Shown: positions 3,807-64,000 of the stretch, in pieces
Layout of the letters: each line of letters starts with the position of its first letter
How positions within the stretch are numbered: the stretch's first letter is position 1
Translations under genes and position numbers: made by a program
Notes under the pieces: model-generated
Seen by the model: only the letters and a program-made list of their open reading frames with translations
Told to the model about the DNA's origin: nothing
The model's database searches: none
Assembly: GCA_950295325.1 (NCBI GenBank)
Contig: OX485809.1
Span: 22,768,144 to 22,832,143, forward strand
Source of the DNA: Polytrichum commune
Taxonomy: Eukaryota > Streptophyta > Polytrichopsida > Polytrichales > Polytrichaceae
Direction: 5' to 3'
DNA: 64,000 nt

Positions 3807-4760
3807 CAACAGTGGTTTCTAAATCACTTCTAATGCTCATTCATCTAATGAAGTTCTGATGAACTTGTTTTCATTCAATACAGAGGACCAACATACATCC
3901 TCGGAAAGTCGACCGTGGCCCTTCAGAGGAACCCATTGATACCAATTGTGTCTGGATTAGGAAAGGTTTGCCCTTCTAAATGTCACCGTTTTTAGACCTA
4001 CTTAGATGCCATATCCCTCTACAACAGGGCTTTCTGAATCACTGCAATGCCGGTTCATCTAATGAAGTACTGATGATGTGACGTTATTTCAGAGGAGCAG
4101 GATAGATGCTTGAAGCCTGGCATTTCGAGGAACTCATTGACACAATTTATGTCTGAATTAGGAGAGTTTTGCAATTCGAATGTCAACGTTTTTAGAAGTA
4201 CTGGAAAACCTTTTCCCTTCACAACGCCCTTCAATTAAGTAATTATGATTCTTTGTTAATTCACACAGAGGAGCAACACACATCCTTGGAAAGTCGAGCG
4301 TGGTCCTCCATAGGAATCCATTGATACCATTTGTGTCAGAATCAGGAAACGTTTTGACTTTCAAATCTCGATGTTTTTAGAACTAAATATTAGCCATATC
4401 CCTTTACAACAGTGCTTTCTACATCAATTCTGATGCTCATTCATCTAATGAAGTACTAGAGACTTGATGTTAATTTAGACAGAGGAGCAATATACATGCT
4501 TGGAGGGTCAGGCGTGGCCCTTCAGAGGAATCCATGGAGACCATTTGTGTCTAAATTAGGAATTGTCTGTCCCTTTAAATGTCGAACCACTCAAAACCAA
4601 CATCCCTGTACGACAAGGGTTTCTAAATCGCTTCAATGCCGATTCATCTCATGAAGTACTTATGATTTGATGTTATTCCGCACAGGGAAGCAACGCACAT
4701 TCTTGGGAGGTCGAGCCTGGCATTTCGAGGAATCTATTGAAACCATTCGCGTCTGAATTA
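3807..4760. repeat. tandem array, five units of about 175-215 bp
   Basis: Successive units each carry, in order, tttctaaatca, attcatctaatgaagta, cagaggagcaa, catgcttgga-agtcga, ggcccttcagaggaa, ccattgataccatttgtgtct and gaattagga. The cagagg anchors fall at 3881, 4090, 4265, 4480 and 4683. Two further degenerate units are detached near 6240-6385 and 6700-6860. Short open frames here are fortuitous. Confidence 0.8.
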
Positions 4761-5814: not shown

Positions 5815-7081
5815 TAAACCCTGATGGCAAACAGAAAAGCGTGGATGAACGGCCGGGGTCTCTCCGGCACGTACCCAGCCGGTGCGGCCTCCGTCAATGG
5901 ACCCTGCGTTAGGGACCGGCTAAGCTCCCTACCCGGTTGGGAGCTTCCAGGTAGGCCTTGGCCAAATCCGGTTCCGGCCCAACACCCTCTAGTGCAGCTA
6001 GGCCCTAAGAACTTAAGAAGCCAATTTTGTAAAACATCGATTGGGGCATGGTCCTGCTGACCTTACCATGTGAATGCAGCTTAAAAGGATGCTTACGCTT
6101 TAAGATGATGGTTTAGGAGTGCCATACCAAGTGCTACAGATAATGTAGGTGCTGCCCCGGGTGGTGGTGGTGGTGGTGGTGGTGATGAATTCATAATCAT
6201 AATGAGTATAAAGTCATTACTTATTATGAATCTACATTTCATTTCAATTTCCTTTTTAATGGACTGATGATGTGCTATTTCATGAAAAGGAGCTTGGAAA
6301 GGGGAATTCCACTTAAGAAACTCTTTGATACAAATATACATAGTCATGGACTAGGGCAAGGTTGCACTTTCGTATGTCCACAGTTTTAGTACTTAGTATG
6401 TGAAGCAATACTTCTAGAGCGGGATTAACCATCTAGGTATTTCTCTTAGGTTTTTAATTCACTTCTAGGATTTTTTATTTTTTATTTTATTTTTTTGAAG
6501 TTTATAATCTAAAAAATGATTGAAATGCAAAAGAAGCTCTAAAATATTGCTTATGCTCTGAAATATCATTCTAAGAACTCCACACTAGTTTCTAAAGACA
6601 TCAAACCCGTACAAGTGCTACAAATATTTGTTGCACCGGGTGATGATGATGATGAAGTATGCAACCACAGAAACACTAGAATTATGATGAGACTAGACAT
6701 CACTTCTAGTGTTTCTAATTTTTTACACCACATGCACAACCCTCACACAAAGGAGAACAACATGCTTGGAAAGAGGGCGATGAAAATAATCTATTGATGC
6801 CATTTTCGTTCGATTTAATCAAGAACAAGGTGTTCCACAATCAAACGTCGACACTCATAAGTCTAACGCAGAGATCGCCATCCAACCTTGAAAACCCTCG
6901 TCACGCGAAAGCAACTCCCTAATAGTGCGTATGCTTCAAAACGTTTTAGCAGCTCCAAACCAGGTTCTAAAGACGCTGACCTCAGCTGCCAGATACTTTC
7001 CACTCACCAGCTCGGGTGATGATGATCAATGATAACAAAGGAAAATTCGCTTTGAGCAACGGTGACTTCATTGAAGGTGGA
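5815..7081. other. intergenic, GC-rich patch and microsatellite
   Basis: A locally GC-rich patch of about 240 bp (5830-6060) is followed by a (GTG)n run at 6161-6183 and by two detached degenerate units of the 3.8-4.8 kb tandem array. No supported gene. Confidence 0.4.
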
Positions 7082-51879: not shown

Positions 51880-52910
51880 GTGTTGATTTGAGTTGGTTAA
51901 GTGCAATTGTGCATATTTGAGGGTATCCAAGATCACTTGGGTTTTGAATGATTAGATTTGAGTTGCTTGAGTGTATTTGTACATATTTAAAGGATATTAA
52001 AGGACATTTGAATTAAAGATGGTTTGATTTGAGTAATTTGATGGTGCAAAAATATATTTGAGTTGAAGGAGGCTTGATTTGAATGGTTTGAGGGTACAAG
52101 ACACATTTGAGTTGTAAAGGGTTTGATTTGAGTGGTTTCAAGGTGCAAAGGCACATTGAAGATGAAAAGGGCATGATTTGAGTGTATTGGAAGTGCAAAG
52201 GTGCATTTGAATTGAAGAGGGTTTGATTTGAGTGGTTTGAGGGGTGGAAAAACACATTAAAGCTATAGAGGGCTTGATTTAAGTGGTTTGAAGATGCAAA
52301 GACACATCAGAGTTGTAAAGGGCTTGGTTTAAGTAGTTTTGAAGGTGCAAAGGCACATTAGAGTTGTAGAGGGCTTGATTTAAGTAGTTTAAAGGTGCAA
52401 AAATATATTAGAGTCGTAGAGGGTTTGACTTAAGTGGTTTGAAGGTGCAAAGACATGTTAGAGTTGTAGAGGGCTTAATTTAAGTGCTTTAAGGGTGCAA
52501 AGACACATTAGATTTGTAGAGGGTCTTATTTGAATGATTTGAGGGTGTATATGCTCATTTCAATCGAAGAGAGTATGATTTAAATGGTTTGAGGGTGCAA
52601 ATGCACATTTGAAGCAAGAAGAGTCATTTGAGATTGAGAAAATCTAATTTGAATGAATTGAGGGTGCGAAATTAAGTTTGGGAGCAAAAATCCTCATTTG
52701 AGTTCAAGACAATGACTTGAGTGGATTGAGGGTGAAAACTCAAGTTTGAGAGCAAGAGGACTCATTTGAATTCAAGAGGATCCAACTTTAATAGATCGAG
52801 GGTGCAAAGTCAAGTTTGAGAGCAAGAAGGTTCATTTGAGTTCAAGAGGACTTTATTTGAATGAATTGAGGTCCAAAAGTATATTTGAGACCAAAAGGGC
52901 TTGATTTGAG
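51880..52910. repeat. 50-bp minisatellite, about 20 units
   Basis: A regular 50-bp period is plain from the ggcttgattt anchors at about 52071, 52121, 52171, 52221, 52271 and 52321. Typical parts are gggcttgatttgagtggttt, gaaggtgcaaa and ggcacattagagttgtaga. The edges are more diverged and the middle most regular. Open frames here arise from the repeat. Confidence 0.92.
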
Positions 52911-55800: not shown

Positions 55801-56153
55801 AAAATTGGCATTACCATAGAAATGAGGTTATTTGTAGATGTTTTACTTCATGATGTTGATTTCACATTGGAATATGATTGCAGCCGTGGATCTATTAACA
55901 ACCATTCATACTTGTTTGGTGTCCTCAGCCACCAGTACAAAGTGTTGTTAAAGTTTTAATTCCCCCCATATGTATTGATTATGATGTGGAGGAACTGTGA
56001 CCAAATTTCTGAATTCCCACCCAAAATCCACCGTCCGAATCTTGGATGACGGTTGTTAGGTTTCCCCTCCATTGGCACTGGGAAAACCACACCCTCTGTT
56101 GTTGCAAGAATTCAATCAGTTGCAGTTGTGCGACTGTTTTGTAGGATGTTATA

Positions 56154-59100
56154 ATGGCATTGCTTGATGAAGCCAACATTGCTCGGGCCTATGTTCCATC
56201 AGTGGTTCTTGATTCAAAGTATGCGCCTATTTTTAAAAGAGGTAGTCGAATTATGGAGGGGCAAAATCCTAGGACTTGTTTCCCAATCAAACGCAAAGCA
56301 GGTGACACCAATATCGATTTGTGGCTTGATGGATCCATCTATCCCACAGATCCTTCCACTGGGATGCCTCCACCGTTCAGGACACTAAAGGCATTTTTAG
56401 AATTCGTATGTCATGGACAAGCAAGCCTTTTAGGATATATCGAGAAGTTGGCAGGTCCAAATGGATATAGCACCAACTTAGTGAGAATTCTTCAGCAGAA
56501 AGTATTAGACCACAATGTTTGTACCAAAACAGAGATTGAACGCTTGCAACATTTTATTGAACATTTGTTGAATGAATTGGATGCAGTGAAAAAACGTTGG
56601 GCTCTTGAAGTGGTTGAATTGCAACAGGTTAGAACAGATTAGATGAAATCCTACCAGTTGCAAAGTGAGCACTTGAGAGAACAATGTCGAACCTTGCAAC
56701 GTGATTTGGAAATTAATTTGGAGGCGTACAAGCAACATCTACATGTATATGAATGTCAAGCCAGGGAGGCAACACATGCTCATGAACAAATTGTAGAGGA
56801 GGGAAAGAGAGAATCAGACGAGCGCCTTGCAATGTTGAGCCAAGAAGACCTGCATGTTCTTAACACCCTTACAACGGAATTAACTGATGCAAAAAATGAA
56901 ATGGTGAAGCTCCAACAGAAACTACAGAAGATGGTGATGACACCCTTCGGTAAGGTCCCAACTTCGTCAAACAAGGTCTTTGGACCAATTGGCGCAAAAA
57001 GGAAGTCAACGACGTGCTCGATCGTATTTCAGCAATTAGGCGTTTGTTGCAACCCAACACTCACCACCAAGTGGTTGACCGCAACAAGGGAAGTGGTAGT
57101 AGGAAGAGGTTGTGTGGTCCCAAATCCACTCAAGAAGGAATTGCTACCGCACTTGCTGGGATGTTGTCAAGAGATGAAGCATTAGCTCTTGGATCCACAA
57201 CAAAATTGAGTTTTGTTGGAAAAAGAATGGCCAATTACTACTTGAAGAAGATTAGTGTTGAGATTGATACCGAGTCAATCTTGGCAGCATGTGACATGAC
57301 TGGGGTGTCCCAACGTGGATATGGACAAATCTATAAAACTATCAAAGGTCGAGTTGGTATTGTGGACAAAGATCTGAAAGCCAACTTCCTGCCTACTCCT
57401 AACAAGGTATGTTAGTCCCACTGCCTACTTCATTGATGCAATTGTTTTGGGCACCAAAGAAGTGGTTTTGAGAGGCACTTACATAATGCATTGTTGATTG
57501 TTGTGATAGGTGAGGATGTTGAGAGTGGACTTGAACATGAAGCTTAAGGATTTTGTGGGGGACTACTACCACATAAACAATACGCATGAGGTAGCACCAG
57601 CTAGGACATCATCGAAGACAAAGAATGAGAAGGACAAAATGATTGTTCTGAATGACAAAAACACATTTTTTGCTGACATTGAAGTTGTTCAATGGACTAT
57701 GGTGGCATTATATGGGATAACAGAGGAAGGTATGTGGTGGAGCTCATGGAAGGATATCATGAGTTATTCAATGTTGTATGTGAAATTTGGCAAAGTTGAA
57801 ATTGACTTGGGTGAAGTTCTTTATATTTGCAGAGGTTGGTGATGATCCGCTCAAGTTTGTACTAAAACTTGACGAGGCCGAGATTTTGCATGGAAAGAAA
57901 TTTGAGAGAGTTTCCATAACCCTCATGAATCGTGTCTTAGATCCAAAGGTCATTAAAAACGATGAAAGATATTTCTCTGTGCAATCAGAACAAGAGATTT
58001 GGCCGATAGCATGTTTCCTAGTGGCAAAAGAGTCATATGAGGTTCTAAAGTGGACATTTGCCCAAACAAAATTCCCGGAGGTGATTGCTGCCCAAGAATC
58101 AGGGCGACCTTTGGTGGTACCAGACATAGGAACATTCAAAGTGGAATGGCATTTGAGTGCTGATATGAAGACCATCAAATGCATGTATGGACTTAAGGGT
58201 GGAACCATGTCCAAGTTTGCGTGCGTCTACTGCAATCAAGAAAAGGATAAATCTTTGGTGGTGTCGGCTCCAATTGCTTCACTTGTAGCAAAAAACAGAG
58301 CGAAGAACAACTGGAATGGTGGTTTGTTTGCACGAAGTGTTAGCATGGGGCCAATTGAGGTTGGCAAAAGAGACAGGTGGAAGCCTATTTTGCTCATACC
58401 GTTGGAGAGAGTTCACATCTGCACCCTACATGCTCTAACCAGGATCACCGAAAAACTATTACATTTGCATATTATGTTCATTTGGAACATGTCCAACCCA
58501 ACAAGAAAGGAAGTAGCAATAGAAAGAATGGAGAAATCTTTATCAGCTACAGGCATGCATGGTGGGAACGTGGTCATCAACAAAGACATTGACCGGATCG
58601 AGTGGACCCAACAACAACATACCAAAAAAAACCCTCTCTAAGTGGAGTTAATGATGGGAGGTTGTTCCAACCATCGACTTGGTCTGGCCAGGATCGAGTG
58701 TGGAAAGATGTCTTTCATTCGGAAGACAACCAGCTGCAGCGAGGGCAAGCTTACCTTGGTAGGGTGGCAACATGGATTGCGTTGGAACAAATCTAGCCAT
58801 ATTTGTGTGGATTGACTCTCACAAACGATCAACGTACTGTATTCCAAACAAAGGTGGAAGAGTTTGGAAGGTTGTTCATATGCAATTTTGGAGAGGAACA
58901 TGTCACCCACTACATGGTGAGTCATTCTTATTCTGAAAAATGGTTTTGTTAGGCCACTGCCGTATTGTTCAAGTTGGGTCCATATCCTTGACTCAACACT
59001 TTGTTTATGGTTTGCAGCATGTTCTTATAAGGCACGCCCCATGGTTCGTTCAAGAATATGGAAGTTTAGTTGTATGGAACAACCAGGGGATGGAGAAGTC

Positions 59101-59466
59101 CCACCATGCGGCCAAGTCCAGTCTTCAACACCACACCCAACATGGTGGTACCAAAAGAAGAACTAGTGCTATTGTACAACAATACCAGCACTGGTATCGA
59201 AATATCCAGCATAGGTTTGCGAACAAGGCAAATTGAGGGAAATATCTTTACAGAGGCCCATTGTTGATGAAAACAAAGCCCAAATTTCTGAACGTAAACG
59301 CCTAGCCTATCATTCATCGAACGCAAATATTGCCCATGCTGCATGGACTGCAACTAAAATTCGTAATGGTAGCAGGTGGGTAGGTAGAGTTGTTGACATC
59401 TCCCCTACTTTAGACTCAACAATCCCAATTGAAGTGGTGGACCCAATTTCAACCTCTATTGGATAA
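56154..59466 (+). pseudogene. multi-exon transposon-like gene, unknown family, decayed
   Basis: No family recognised. Exons that keep frame through GT-AG introns: 56154-56949, 57033-57406, 57510-57729, 57833-58916 and 59018 onward, about 970 codons in all. In order: an N-terminal domain with FKRGSRIMEGQNPRTCFPIK, a long coiled coil (about residues 120-260), a basic Ser/Arg segment (GSGSRKRLCGPK), then a central region with FACVYCNQEKDKS (a single C-x2-C), RVHICTLHALTRITEKLLHL and, near the end, VVWNNQGMEKSHHAAKSSLQ followed by YQHWYRNIQHRF. Breaks: TAG at 56640-56642 and 58794-58796, a one-base loss at the A8 run 58624-58631, and a TGA at 59234 with the tail (ISERKRLAYHSSNA onward) in another frame to 59466. 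Stops inside an otherwise well-kept reading frame suggest recent inactivation of an autonomous element or a domesticated gene. The start ATG is a guess, because an acceptor-like ttttgtag lies just upstream. Confidence 0.6.
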
Positions 59467-60214
59467 TATGCAGCAATTTAGGTTGCAGGTTTTGAAATAC
59501 AATATGAAGCTAATTGTTGTAAAGTAAGAGGTAGTTTTATATCAAAAATTGTCGAATTGTTGAGAAAATTGGATGTGTATGGAGCTATGTATTAGCCATC
59601 AAAACAGATTGTCCGATGTCTAGTGCAAACACCTAAATCTAGCCATGTGAAGCGGACATCACGAACATCTTAAAATATAATTGTTGCAACCACCCCCCCC
59701 CCCGTACAAGATGGGTCAAAATTTTATCAATTGTTTTTCATGAGTAGATATACATGGCATCTATTACATAGTAAAAAACAATAACCAAATTTGATGATTT
59801 TTCTAAATAAAAATAAAATATTGACGCAAAATTGACTTGAAAAAAGTACTACAAAATTTAAGATGCCTAAAAATTTCAGTAAAATATACAAAAGATATTA
59901 TCTATGCTTATGCATATGTAGAAATTAAATTAAATTATATATGGCATATAATATAGGGTAGCAAGCTTTTATCGCACGTGTTTATGAAGGTAAGCGGGTG
60001 TGATGGCCCGAGAAAAATCTTTGCACTATTTTTCTCCCTCTTTAGTATGACATTTTTGGGTAATCCAAAAAAAATTGTATTATGGAGTTGTCGTCTTCTC
60101 ATTAATATGAAAATGACGTAAATTTGTCATATCATTGAGGGAATATGTAAACATAAGTAATATGAGCTTAAAAATATATACAACGAGTTCACACCTTTTA
60201 TAGCCCATTAGCTA
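59467..60214. other. very AT-rich spacer
   Basis: No gene. A C12 run lies near 59692-59703. AT-rich DNA is compatible with a 3' flank of the unknown gene. Confidence 0.4.
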
Positions 60215-60440
60215 GCTGGGCTAGCCCATATTTTTGAGGAATTAATCTTGCCATAGCTAGGCTAGCCCATATTTTTTGAGGCCTCAATCTAGCCATAGCT
60301 AGGCTAGCCCATATTTTCTAAGGCCTCGATCTAGCCATAGCTGGGCTAGCCCATATTTTCTAAGGCCTTGATCTAGCCGTAGCTGGGCTAGCCCATATTT
60401 TGGGAGGCCTCGATCTAGCCATAGCTGGGCTAGCCCATTT
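60215..60440. repeat. 42-bp tandem repeat, about 5.5 units
   Basis: Each unit reads approximately gctgggctagcccatatttt, then ctaaggcctcgatctagccata. It contains the self-complementary GGGCTAGCCC and CTAGCCATAGCTGGGCTAG-type symmetry, so each unit could form a small hairpin. The array lies between two convergent gene sets. Confidence 0.92.
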
Positions 60441-60559
60441 TTTTCGGGTACCGTTTTTAGCTGGACTAGCTGACCTAATAAATTAATTCATGTAGCTCAT
60501 ATAATGAATTCAAGGAGACATTGTCTCATCAATACAATTATATTTCATATCAGTCAAAA

Positions 60560-60751: not shown

Positions 60752-60812
60752 TGATGCCTCTGCAAATCCTCCCCCGAGCGATGATCTCTTTGGAGTAATA
60801 TGGGGATATTAA

Positions 60813-60855
60813 CTAAAATGAGCCAATTGGACCATTATGAGACAATTCGTACCGA
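60813..60855. mobile_element. family D inverted-repeat element, end remnant
   Basis: ttaactaaaatgagccaatt and the following ggaccattatgagacaatt match the right-hand end of the 11884-12136 element. The rest is missing. Confidence 0.55.
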
Positions 60856-60880
60856 TGGGAACGTGCATTGGGAACGTGCT

Positions 60881-60900
60881 TCACGGGTAAATACCCGTGA
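60881..60900 (+). repeat. 20-bp palindrome, copy 1
   Basis: TCACGGGTA-AA-TACCCGTGA: perfect 9-bp arms around AA. The arms differ from the other copies by a compensating pair of changes, which keeps the symmetry. Confidence 0.9.
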
Positions 60901-61010
60901 ATTGCCATCATTGACATAGACTAACACACTATTTCATGCACATTGGTGTATATATATAAGTGAGATGAATGCCTTGTACTTGCCGAAAGTGAAACTTAGC
61001 CCACCTGTAA

Positions 61011-61030
61011 CCACGGGTGTTCACTCGTGA
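61011..61030 (-). repeat. 20-bp palindrome, copy 2 (inverted)
   Basis: CCACGGGTG-TT-CACTCGTGA, with two unpaired positions in the arms. The TT centre shows it is inverted relative to the others. It shares about 60 bp of right-hand flank (gaccaaccaac, gcaaca, atccataacac) with copy 3. Confidence 0.85.
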
Positions 61031-61184
61031 CCAACCAACACCCCGCAACAGATGAACCTATATCCATAACACAACATAAGTCGACACCACTAAGGAACAA
61101 CCATGCGCATGTGAACAAATGTATGCAAATATAATGGGTGTAATCATAAAAACCATCATGGGCACTTAATACAAAAACATCCAA

Positions 61185-61204
61185 CCACGGGTGAACGCCC
61201 GTGA
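61185..61204 (+). repeat. 20-bp palindrome, copy 3
   Basis: CCACGGGTG-AA-CGCCCGTGA. Two unpaired positions in the arms. Confidence 0.85.
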
Positions 61205-61367
61205 CCAACCAACGGCATGCAACACACGATGCAAGATCCATAACACTTGCAGGAAGGTCTACAAGTCATACCCGACTACACAACTAAGGGTCAAAACATC
61301 ATTTGGATTTGATAAAAATTGGCACAGTGTGAACAAAATATGTCACAAAGTAGATGAATTGTTGTAT

Positions 61368-61387
61368 CCACGGGTGAACACCCGTAG
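61368..61387 (+). repeat. 20-bp palindrome, copy 4
   Basis: CCACGGGTG-AA-CACCCGTAG, one arm mismatch. It lies 26 bp beyond the stop of the minus-strand gene at 61413. Confidence 0.88.
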
Positions 61388-61412
61388 ACAATCTATAACC
61401 ATAAAGGTCCGG

Positions 61413-61973
61413 CTATCTACAAGAGGAGTATGAATCAGTAATCATTTTCAACATCTTGTCATGGGGTATCCTTTGAGCTACACTACATTGCTTGCGCTTG
61501 AGTTCTTCAAGCCGTTTTTTCTCCGCCGTCAAAGCTGTAGCTTCTCGAAGTTGTTTCACCCTTGCAGCCATGTAATCAGACATGGATGAGGTGGTATTGG
61601 GTGAACTACACCTCCAACATCCAGAACTATTTCCCGAGCCCGTGGGCTCACTAGGCTGTGTGGTTTGGAGAGAAAGGTGTCTCTTCACACGAGCGCGTGT
61701 GACCGGAGCTGCAACCACGACCGCGACCGGAACAGCCACCGCAAGCGCAACATCGCTTGTTTGGAGCATATGTGTCTAACACAACATAGGCCAAAATGAT
61801 ATTAGAATCCCCAGGACGAAACACAACCACAAAAAATTAGATTCATGTGGAAAATAAATTACCTTAGGGCATGGAGATGTCACTTCGGCGAAGTCGGCGT
61901 TAGCATCCGGAGGACGGTGTCCGCGAGGTGGAGTGGCAATATAGTTCTTAGGTCGTGTTGGAAATGGGGAATG
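61413..61973 (-). CDS. unknown gene, last two exons
   Basis: Two exons, 61863-61973 and 61413-61775, join in phase 0 through a GT-AG intron (61776-61862) into 157 codons with a TGA stop. Further exons presumably lie upstream, because the first exon begins at an acceptor without an ATG. The first is Pro-rich (PPRGHRPPDANADF). The second has a small-residue hydrophobic stretch (DVALAVAVPVAVVVAAPV), a basic segment (TRARVKRHL), a Ser/Thr-rich linker, and a charged C-terminal helix (RVKQLREATALTAEKKRLEE). It looks coding from its splice consistency, but I recognise no family. Palindrome copies lie on both sides. It could be a second protein of a transposon. Confidence 0.45.
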
Positions 61974-62185
61974 CTGTTATGGTACAAGAACATAAGATTC
62001 CATGGAAGCAGGACATTATGTGCAAGAGGAGCCAGTGGGTGCAAGATGAACATGTGCAAAAATAATTGAATTATAGCCGACTAAGTCCTACATATTAATG
62101 TTCCCCATAACAACCCAAACTCCCAAGTTGTCAACTAACATTGTCCAAGTGTTCTGGTACATTCATTGAATCAACCACCACATTG

Positions 62186-62205
62186 CCACGGGTGAACACC
62201 CGTGG
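62186..62205 (+). repeat. 20-bp palindrome, copy 5
   Basis: CCACGGGTG-AA-CACCCGTGG, perfect arms. It lies between the two minus-strand genes. Confidence 0.93.
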
Positions 62206-62442
62206 GATAATGCCAAACGTTCAATGTGGTTGTAAATAGTCGAAACTTCTCTAACACAACAGTGTTGCAAGGTAGTAGAATCCGAGTGGCATACATTCAT
62301 CACCATATCATGTTTGCATGAAATAAGTCCACAAAACCAGAGCAACTTCCAAAAAGTCCAAAAAGTTTTAGTTCCACTTATTTCACATACAATGTACGAG
62401 CGAGTTGCGGCCCCAACAAGGGATCTACACAGACATCTGCGC

Positions 62443-63975
62443 CTATGGGACCATACGGGCAGATTTCAGACTTGTATGTCTAGCTAATGATTGCTTATAA
62501 ATCTGAGAATTTGGCAACTCTAGATTGAAGGGTCCCTGGCCTGATGGATAAGGGTTGCTCCCCACAAAATCTGGCACATATTGTTCAAAACTCAAGAGCC
62601 TTTGTAGGTAATTATGCAGAGTGTCCAAGCTTTGGTTCGACAGAAATGGGGGAGGGTTGACGTAGCTCCCAGGAGGGTTTGGGATGCATTTGTAAGGGGA
62701 GTCATCAACAAGTAGTGTGGTCCTATGAGAGGGTTGCTTCATGTGCGGCAGAGGATGTGTCCGGCTCCACTCAAAAAATGCGCTCAGGTCTTTCACGAAG
62801 AAGCTTGAATCGGAATTCATAGGACTAGGAAGAACTTGTCCTCTCTCATCCTTCAGAGTGTCACATAGTTCTTGCCCAATGACATACTCTGGATGTCTAC
62901 ACCCTTTGAAGAAGTGTCGCACAATTGGCTGGAGATTCTTCATGAGCTTCGACGACCAGATGACAACATGGAAGTTCGAAAGAACAAAACGCAGAAAGCG
63001 TCCCAGTCCTTTCCTAGGTATTAAGGCACTATATGGGAGAAAGAGGGGAGCCAACTCCCCAGTTATAAGGGGGCTATATTGTGATTCAAGAGACTTCCTG
63101 GTGTTGACATTGTCGCACTTTGTTGACCTCACAAGGATCCCGTTGACATCCAGCACTAACCATATCTTCTCTCTCCGATGGACAACAGTGCTTGGAGAGG
63201 TGAGTATCTGGCGATGACAAAATCTCAAGTCATTCTAAAGGTTTTTAATCTAAGGAAACAATAGATTCTAATGGATATTTCTCGACTAGGAAACAACAGA
63301 TTGGGTTGACATATGTATGCATCCGCAATAGAAAATAATGCTTGCACATTTATTGATTAGTTTTGCGAGCTAGGGGAGAACATCGTACCGAAGGAGGTAA
63401 TTCGGCCGTGGCTGTAGGACCTGTGACCACATCAACACATAACTTATGAGATCCACATGCTGAAAACCATACTCTCCCACGGGTGAACACCCGTGGGCAA
63501 AATATCAATCAAGTATTGGACATGATCTAACAATTTGCGTGGAAATTGTAAACTACAAACCAGGGGACCCACGGGTGAACACCCGTGGGACCAATTCCAA
63601 TCAAATAACACCATATATGATACCTGGAGCTCGGTCTAGGAGTGCAGGGTCGTCATGAGAACTCGGGGGAATGACCTCCCGTTCTGCCGCAACCAAATTG
63701 GAGGAAGACGGTTGACCCTCAGCAACAGGGCCAACATGGACATCCCTCCTTGGAGAATCTGGCACTTCACTGACGTCGATGATCTCCATGGTAGAATCCA
63801 CAACACTGCCAGCTTGAGCGGCGGAGGATCCCGGGAATTGACCTCGTCCTCCACGATGTTTTGGAGCTTCAAACGCGGTCCATCTCTTTCTCATTTTCTT
63901 CAATGAAGCGGCATGTAGAACATGTTTCACCTTCACTGCTTCACAAAACGCTGGAGTGGAGAGATAAGCGAACAT
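62443..63975 (-). CDS. FCP1/NIF-type HAD-fold protein (5' end uncertain)
   Basis: A member of the FCP1-homology (NIF, HAD-fold) family, whose best-known members are Ser/Thr phosphatases. Exons: 63624-63975 and beyond, 63389-63420 (32 nt) and 62443-63207, with in-frame GT-AG junctions. The HAD core is complete in outline: motif I WLVLDVNGILV, motif II VVIWSSKLMKNL, a Lys in FVKDLSAFF and motif IV TTLLVDDSPYK. Motif I has D-x-N where active phosphatases have D-x-D-x-(T/V), so the general acid is replaced and activity is doubtful. From memory, plant relatives of this subgroup often share that change. The first exon is Pro/Ser-rich (VVDSTMEIIDVSEVPDSPRR) and starts with ATG at 63975, but the frame stays open to the edge, so the gene may begin outside. 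The intron between 63421 and 63623 holds two of the palindromes. Confidence 0.82.
63476..63497 (+). repeat. 22-bp palindrome, copy 6 (intronic)
   Basis: The 20-bp core CCACGGGTGAACACCCGTGG extended by C and G, perfect arms. Inside an intron of the FCP1-like gene. Confidence 0.93.
63568..63589 (+). repeat. 22-bp palindrome, copy 7 (intronic)
   Basis: Identical to copy 6 over 22 bp, 92 bp away in the same intron. The right flanks of copies 6 and 7 share a few bases (aat-tc-aatcaa). Confidence 0.93.
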
Positions 63976-64000
63976 CTTGTGATAGTCATACGACTTGTAT

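Follow-up and report, generated by a model that had tools for sequence, protein, structure and literature searches.

Seven 20-bp palindromes near the right-hand edge of a 64-kb stretch of Polytrichum commune DNA (the window, that is, the whole stretch analyzed) belong to a set of sites scattered through a giant DNA transposon, which is entered at the window's end. The sites are constrained in sequence between diverged copies of the element, and related elements in the same genome carry different palindromes. They are very probably recognition sites for some protein that the element encodes; the reading preferred here, which we consider rather likely, is that they are family-specific sites of an element-encoded dimeric ParB-like protein. 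Symmetric, sequence-fixed sites of 18-20 bp that lie outside the reading frames, and that differ by family along with the proteins, fit the recognition sites of a dimeric protein.

The palindromes and the giant transposon

A preliminary description of this DNA had reported seven palindromes, starting at 60881, 61011, 61185, 61368, 62186, 63476 and 63568, and all seven were present when the window sequence was checked. Palindromes 6 and 7 have one extra paired base on each side of the 20-bp core, hence the starts at 63476 and 63568. Six of the seven matched the core CCACGGGTGNNCACCCGTGG at ≤3 mismatches, where 0.02 were expected (100 shuffles), and the copy at 60881 had 4 mismatches. The copy at 61011, which had been called inverted, has TT at its center where the others have AA. 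The absence of any further copy from the window was borne out at ≤4 mismatches to the core. The copies, counted by the core, were as follows.

60881..60900: palindrome 1, TCACGGGTAAATACCCGTGA, 4 mismatches to the core with symmetric changes; subterminal
61011..61030: palindrome 2, center TT where others have AA
61185..61204: palindrome 3, mixed arms with CG in the right arm; 10 bp deleted inside it in a second element copy, B34
61368..61387: palindrome 4
62186..62205: palindrome 5, exact; between conserved frames
63477..63496: palindrome 6, exact
63569..63588: palindrome 7, exact; center AA in the window, TT in copy B34

Pairing-preserving changes in both arms had been described for palindrome 1, and these were found as T..A ends and as A/T replacing G/C next to the center. 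A satellite or simple tandem repeat was ruled out for the window copies by their irregular spacing and differing flanks, as had been argued before; palindrome arrays spaced at 47-48 bp occur elsewhere in these elements.

The genome-wide search for the 20-mer that had been proposed as a check was performed on the genome assembly (G000; 408 Mb, 64 contigs) and gave 1502 sites at ≤2 mismatches against 6 with a reversed control. Exact sites numbered 819, against 0 in the control. Comparison of four palindrome-bearing stretches revealed a large repeated element, with similarity breaking at one common point on the side of a NIF-type (NLI interacting factor-like) phosphatase frame. Both ends of the element are ATGGGGATATTAACTAAAATGAG or a close form of it in inverted orientation, with ATGGGG termini, and a search with 29 end bases (≤3 mismatches) located 60 + 63 ends genome-wide against 0 in the control. 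A 4-bp target duplication was perfect in 11 of 12 end pairs (the window copy and 10/10 further pairs) and matched at 3/4 bases in the twelfth, copy B34. The element thus has both the inverted ends and the fixed-length target duplication of a DNA transposon. Many of the listed end pairs span 19-25 kb and the element size range is 19-31 kb. The following features belong to the window copy.

60796..60799: target-site duplication TAAT, left copy (right copy past the window)
60800..60830, plus strand: left terminal inverted repeat ATGGGGATATTAACTAAAATGAGCCAATTGG
60800..64000, plus strand: left part of the giant transposon, 3.2 kb
61416..61700, minus strand: conserved reading frame, 89% identical to copy B34; no Pfam family above cut-off
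62443..63234, minus strand: NIF-type phosphatase frame, 263 aa (PF03031, E 1e-11)
63601..63999, minus strand: part of the next frame (642 aa and acidic in copy B34)
G000:C7:22828943-22859518: whole window copy (W7), 30.6 kb including the nested insert
G000:C7:22833550-22844419: nested insert, 10.9 kb, with 1.83-kb direct terminal repeats that are 99.8% identical

The right end of the window copy lies ∼27.4 kb beyond the window, at G000:C7:22859516, and is followed by TAAT. The copy is 30.6 kb long because the 10.9-kb insert, probably a young LTR (long terminal repeat) retrotransposon, sits in the part beyond the window. The palindromes form a 2.7-kb cluster because the window stops 3.2 kb into the transposon; more sites of the same element follow on the far side of the window edge, which truncates the cluster. 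The preliminary description had missed the left transposon end, with its inverted repeat and target duplication, as the source of the clustering. NIF frames of the window's subfamily are 99-100% identical in five other copies (one with two stops) and 96-98% identical in a sixth, which is in two pieces. Because of the 99-100% identity, the window's subfamily has probably moved recently.

The first 50 listed exact sites (of 819) all lie on contig C1, and 42 of them fell within element copies or fragments, the element intervals being hand-set and covering 0.25% of the stretch of C1 that holds those 50 sites. The preliminary description had held that a 20-mer evenly common inside a longer repeat would be only part of that repeat. 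Most copies of the 20-mer are indeed within a longer multicopy repeat; they recur there as conserved sites and are no arbitrary stretch of it. A miniature palindromic mobile element, inserted repeatedly into a host repeat, had also been put forward, and the many copies with little common flank would agree with it. That origin is extremely unlikely, as the sites occupy the same positions in diverged element copies, none was found inside the nested insert, and a single transposon family holds 42 of those 50 exact sites.

Three further features were observed to the left of the transposon. A 41-42 bp tandem unit is repeated six times at 60213-60443, just left of the transposon end. A tandem array of ∼50-bp spacing, with ten in-register copies, occupies 51949-52645. 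Several long open frames with no Pfam family above cut-off lie on the plus strand at 56145-59236 and are possibly genes of another mobile element.

Placement and conservation of the sites

Frames conserved between copies W7 and B34 were defined by tblastn. In copy B34 the minus strand carries, from the left end, a short frame, the NIF-type phosphatase frame and frames of 642 aa (acidic), 439 aa and 477 aa, and the plus strand carries frames of 692 aa and 274 aa near the right end. The NIF frame has at least 147 matching stretches in the genome, those of a second element family included. The 692-aa frame matches DUF7869 (PF25273, E 2.8e-46) and has no match among PDB sequences; because of its place in the element and its conservation it is read as the probable transposase. 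The 477-aa frame, on the strand opposite to the DUF7869 gene, has the motif FHVVNGQHTLATC, and its counterpart in the second family has FWIIDGQHSLEAS. The two share a FHVVNGQH / FWIIDGQH motif that resembles those of the ParB/DGQHR group, and the frame is here called ParB-like. No significant match to the first-family 477-aa frame was obtained in Pfam, NCBIfam, PHROGs or PDB sequences, and none to the 439-aa frame in Pfam, NCBIfam or PHROGs. In a viral contig collection the ParB-like frame had no relative and the palindrome had 0 matches.

The window copy contains 28 sites at ≤4 mismatches over its 30.6 kb (29 at ≤5). Only 2 of the 28 lie in conserved frames, though these frames make up 43% of the element without its insert (p 3e-5). 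The remaining sites are located in the gaps between conserved frames, which are presumed to be introns, in subterminal regions, and in arrays on the upstream side of two frames, the ParB-like and the DUF7869 one. None of the seven palindromes in the window is inside the NIF frame or another frame conserved between the two copies, in agreement with the earlier statement that they avoid exons.

This distribution bears on whether the DUF7869 protein, as the probable transposase, binds the sites and does so only for excision and end pairing, like sub-terminal repeats elsewhere. Degenerate palindromes do lie close to the two ends, at ∼82 bp (left) and ∼83 bp (right), and one array is upstream of the DUF7869 frame itself. 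Most sites of the window copy, however, are far inside the 30-kb element and not concentrated at its ends, and we regard this explanation as unlikely, though with a real chance of being correct.

Arms and flanks were compared between W7 and B34 at 12 solitary orthologous sites; 14 array sites were left out, their register being uncertain. The arms were identical at 212 of 216 bases and the 60-bp flanks at 1181 of 1549 (76%; binomial p 3e-20). Three further solitary sites had at first been left out, one with the 10-bp deletion in B34 and two that are degenerate near the right end; with these included, 250 of 270 arm bases were identical (p 1e-12). At least 17 of 18 arm bases were kept at 11 of the 12 solitary sites, and the arms of the array sites were identical at 246 of 252 bases. 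At some orthologous sites the center dinucleotide is AA in one copy and TT in the other.

These comparisons were weighed against an explanation without function, in which the palindromes are DNA prone to form hairpins and owe their likeness to tandem amplification, template switching and gene conversion. The sites in 47-48 bp arrays, the AA/TT flips at orthologous sites and the loss of 10 bp inside one B34 palindrome are all compatible with such an origin. It would not be expected to leave solitary sites with 212/216 arm bases (250/270 with the three sites added) within diverged flanks, nor to keep the sites out of conserved frames, and we consider it quite unlikely.

Both arms tend to change together, the clear case being the eighth base pair. 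Genome-wide, among sites otherwise exact, this pair was T/A in both arms at 819 sites, C/G in both at 208 and mixed at 36, where 356 of the 1063 would be mixed if the arms were independent. Sites with any further change, such as window copy 3 and the mixed sites of locus L052 described below, are outside all three counts. When the arm pairs of 109 sites at ≤4 mismatches in the extracted sequences were scored, one side was changed in 47, both sides with pairing kept in 8 and both without pairing in 1, so that single-sided changes are the commoner kind overall.

The sites might instead act as RNA hairpins in the element's transcripts, in splicing control, small RNA production or termination. Many sites occupy the expected intron positions between conserved frames, and hairpin folding gave z below -2 against shuffles for five of the seven window copies. 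The copy at 61011 gave z -0.36 and preferred another pairing over the hairpin, which argues against RNA structure without favoring any protein. Moreover, the sequence itself is conserved and not the pairing alone, and some sites lie outside genes. Structured RNA, one of the candidates of the preliminary description, thus kept the support of the well-folding copies but became a weaker candidate, and we judge it very unlikely.

Other element families and other palindromes

A second family was found through its NIF frame, which is 37% identical to that of the window. The gene order is the same, and the 439-aa and ParB-like frames match at 23-25% identity. None of the window palindrome was found in the 10 kb of this family that was examined (≤4 mismatches); the same 10 kb contains TACGAACG-NN-CGTTCGTA at 12 sites (≤3 mismatches). 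This second palindrome occurs at 6957 sites genome-wide at ≤1 mismatch, against 14 in the control. The end sequence of the family was located 514 + 524 times genome-wide against 0 in the control, and both inverted ends were seen in a 16-kb copy.

A protein search with the first-family ParB-like frame gave 94 matches, 16 of them only 24-28% identical. The 1.3 kb downstream of one of these 16 holds three near-palindromes of a third family, which were spotted by eye as their one unpaired position had escaped the automatic palindrome finder, and which probably sit in an intron before the next exon. The pattern predicted from them, TTCCNCTCGATCGAGNGGAA, was found at 257 sites genome-wide at ≤1 mismatch against 0 in the control. 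Of the first 50 listed sites of the third-family palindrome TTCCACTCGATCGAGTGGAA, 33 lie ≤2.2 kb from four ParB-like paralogue matches, on both sides of them, and 17 lie elsewhere. The pattern had been drawn from one of the four matches, so the other three served as the test. Because these sites lie so close to the ParB-like gene, the ParB-like protein is the first candidate for the binder; their close flanking of this gene also speaks against the DUF7869 protein.

At G000:C6:38879326-38879460, four third-family sites are the perfect palindrome TTCCTCTCGATCGAGAGGAA; the corresponding sites of three other copies have a single unpaired position, which gives the impression that the palindrome was made symmetric. 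These four perfect sites in one copy would suit the non-functional origin considered above, while the presence of palindromes in each of three families would not.

That each family has its own palindrome suggests that each element encodes a protein that recognizes its own DNA tag. A protein of the host, for instance a transcription or silencing factor, could likewise act on many copies. Unrelated palindromes in different element families are better fitted by readers that the elements encode, and a host reader is given a similarly low probability to that of the RNA hairpins.

Within the first family, the C/G subfamily has CCACGGGCG arms at its 208 sites. Of the first 50 of these listed, 39 are in elements that share 71-81% identity with the window in the NIF frame, and the ParB-like matches in three elements of the C/G type are 67-73% identical. 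The C/G type largely follows one protein subfamily. In locus L052 (a 4-kb sample) two symmetric C/G sites correspond in position to window copies 6 and 7, being enclosed by the same blocks of the alignment, at a spacing of 99 bp against 92 bp in the window.

A further palindrome was observed in a tandem-repeat family at three 10-kb loci (L015-L017) that showed no gene of this element. In L015 the perfect palindrome core AGGCCTCGGATCCGAGGCCT, which has 2894 genome sites at ≤1 mismatch, is present 32 times, alongside two perfect palindromes of the window kind, and the second-family transposon end at C1:2261942 lies in the same locus. Because no element gene was found there, this palindrome was not counted as a fourth pair of protein and palindrome.

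Candidate binding protein and its possible role

In bacterial ParB-parS systems a ParB-type protein acts with short palindromic sites on the DNA that it serves. The present elements are alike in combining a putative ParB-like protein with short palindromes on their own DNA, the resemblance of the protein being at the level of motifs, and differ in being chromosomal and in a eukaryote. No ParA-type partner was matched in the element frames scanned. The TnpA protein of En/Spm (CACTA) elements is an element-encoded DNA-binding protein with repeated sub-terminal sites, linked to transposition and activation. Repeated sites within an element that has a putative DNA-binding protein of its own are again a likeness; the CACTA sites are at the ends, whereas those described here are spread through the element. 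CACTA elements have CACTA termini and a 3-bp duplication, and membership in this group was ruled out by the ATGGGG termini and the 4-bp duplication. Sola1 elements make a 4-bp target duplication, and the same length was found here, with a probable transposase that matched only DUF7869 (PF25273).

For Sola2, a 4-bp target duplication is likewise given in the available part of the source (PMC3627910). The Ectocarpus element Sola1-1_Ec32 is described, in the excerpt available, as a 21.5-kb Sola-1 element that encodes a protein with ParB-like and DNA methyltransferase parts opposite to the transposase, and the authors suggest that ParB-like proteins of this kind may act on the transposon that encodes them, binding and modifying it (PMC12477816). 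The size of ∼20 kb and the transcription of the ParB-like gene opposite to the transposase are shared with the present element; palindrome repeats go unmentioned in that excerpt (PMC12477816). Other differences are the DUF7869 match of the probable transposase here and the lack of a methyltransferase match: no methyltransferase family was matched in the element, and a catalytic motif was not seen by eye, no dedicated test having been made. A frame downstream of the ParB-like frame, at L051:8138-9646 (minus strand) and in its counterpart at L012:6731-8047 (plus strand), has the common end motif NVCGGSKFMYAA / NICGGNKAHIVA, which might be a worn methyltransferase motif.

VANC21, encoded by the Arabidopsis transposon VANDAL21, binds YAGTATTAY motifs within introns of that transposon and in upstream regions, leading to loss of methylation, according to the part of the report available (PMC5735166). 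As described there, short family-specific motifs are repeated in non-coding parts and introns of their own element and in tandem repeats, as found here, but the VANC21 motif is 9 bp long and arrayed in one orientation, whereas the present sites are palindromes of 18-20 bp (PMC5735166). The present element shares with VANDAL/VANC the family-specific motifs in its own non-coding parts and differs in its 4-bp target duplication and its size of 19-31 kb. The VANC domains named in the same part of the report, DUF1985 and DUF287 (PMC5735166), had no Pfam match in the element frames scanned.

In the mechanism proposed here, an element protein would read the two identical half-sites as a dimer and would bind 25-30 sites, some in the presumed introns that separate the conserved frames, others in arrays ahead of genes or close to either end. 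The ParB-like protein, whose gene is on the other strand from that for DUF7869, would be the most probable binder. Coating the element that encodes it, this protein would keep the element open against host silencing, as VANC does on VANDAL, and the bound protein may also help to join the transposon ends. An anti-silencing effect is, by this analogy, the most likely one for the putative binding protein. We infer the identity of the binder, its dimeric state and the effect of binding from patterns in the sequence. Binding sites for a dimeric protein had been among the candidates of the preliminary description, and this candidate fitted best, given the near-invariant sites, the paired changes, the avoidance of frames and the family-specific palindromes.

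Several points weigh against the ParB-like protein as reader, or against the evidence for recognition sites in general. The ParB label comes from the motif and from two matches far below cut-offs, obtained with the second-family protein only (GmrSD_N, E 0.04; DGQHR, E 0.11; profiles that we take to belong to the ParB-like fold). The DUF7869 protein differs between families too and could be the binder instead. The third-family comparison covers four of the five matches in the same range, the fifth (C7:14755131) lying past the listed sites, and no clear target duplication was found in the single second-family copy (16 kb) in which both ends were seen. Of the 50 exact sites that head the list, eight fall outside the intervals assigned to the element, and the tandem-repeat family of L015-L017 accounts for five of these. 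Of the first 50 listed C/G sites, 11 are not near a NIF frame, and three further sites in L052 are mixed, with an additional end change, so that the C/G subfamily is not uniform.

The conservation between copies is open to similar objections. An identity of 19/20 was reached by 10 of the 12 solitary sites and also by 753 of 2879 20-bp windows within 150 bp, because some of the flanks are conserved. Independence of bases and sites is assumed in the binomial tests; the copies share descent, and the counts are not independent events. Tandem amplification and homogenisation, the latter likely in these elements, could partly account for how alike the array sites are. One site, at position 4148 of the element, may belong to coding sequence.

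As a broader and tentative proposal, giant eukaryotic transposons might run an addressing system akin to ParB-parS, in which the ParB-like protein of a family loads on its own palindrome, perhaps spreading from it, and marks, opens or pairs only copies of its own family. Protein and palindrome would then co-evolve and split with the families. Among the papers listed in searches of open-licence PMC text, none was seen that links palindromes specific to one family with ParB-like genes of transposons.

Candidate sites are now at hand for three families in one genome, with a site variant that largely follows one protein subfamily, and the proposal that ParB-like proteins of giant algal transposons bind their own elements (PMC12477816), for which the available excerpt names no sites, becomes directly testable by matched and swapped pairs. 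If true, transposons would have sequence-specific self-recognition in one more case besides VANDAL/VANC, this time through palindromic sites, and the families would provide a naturally diversified set of protein-DNA pairs.

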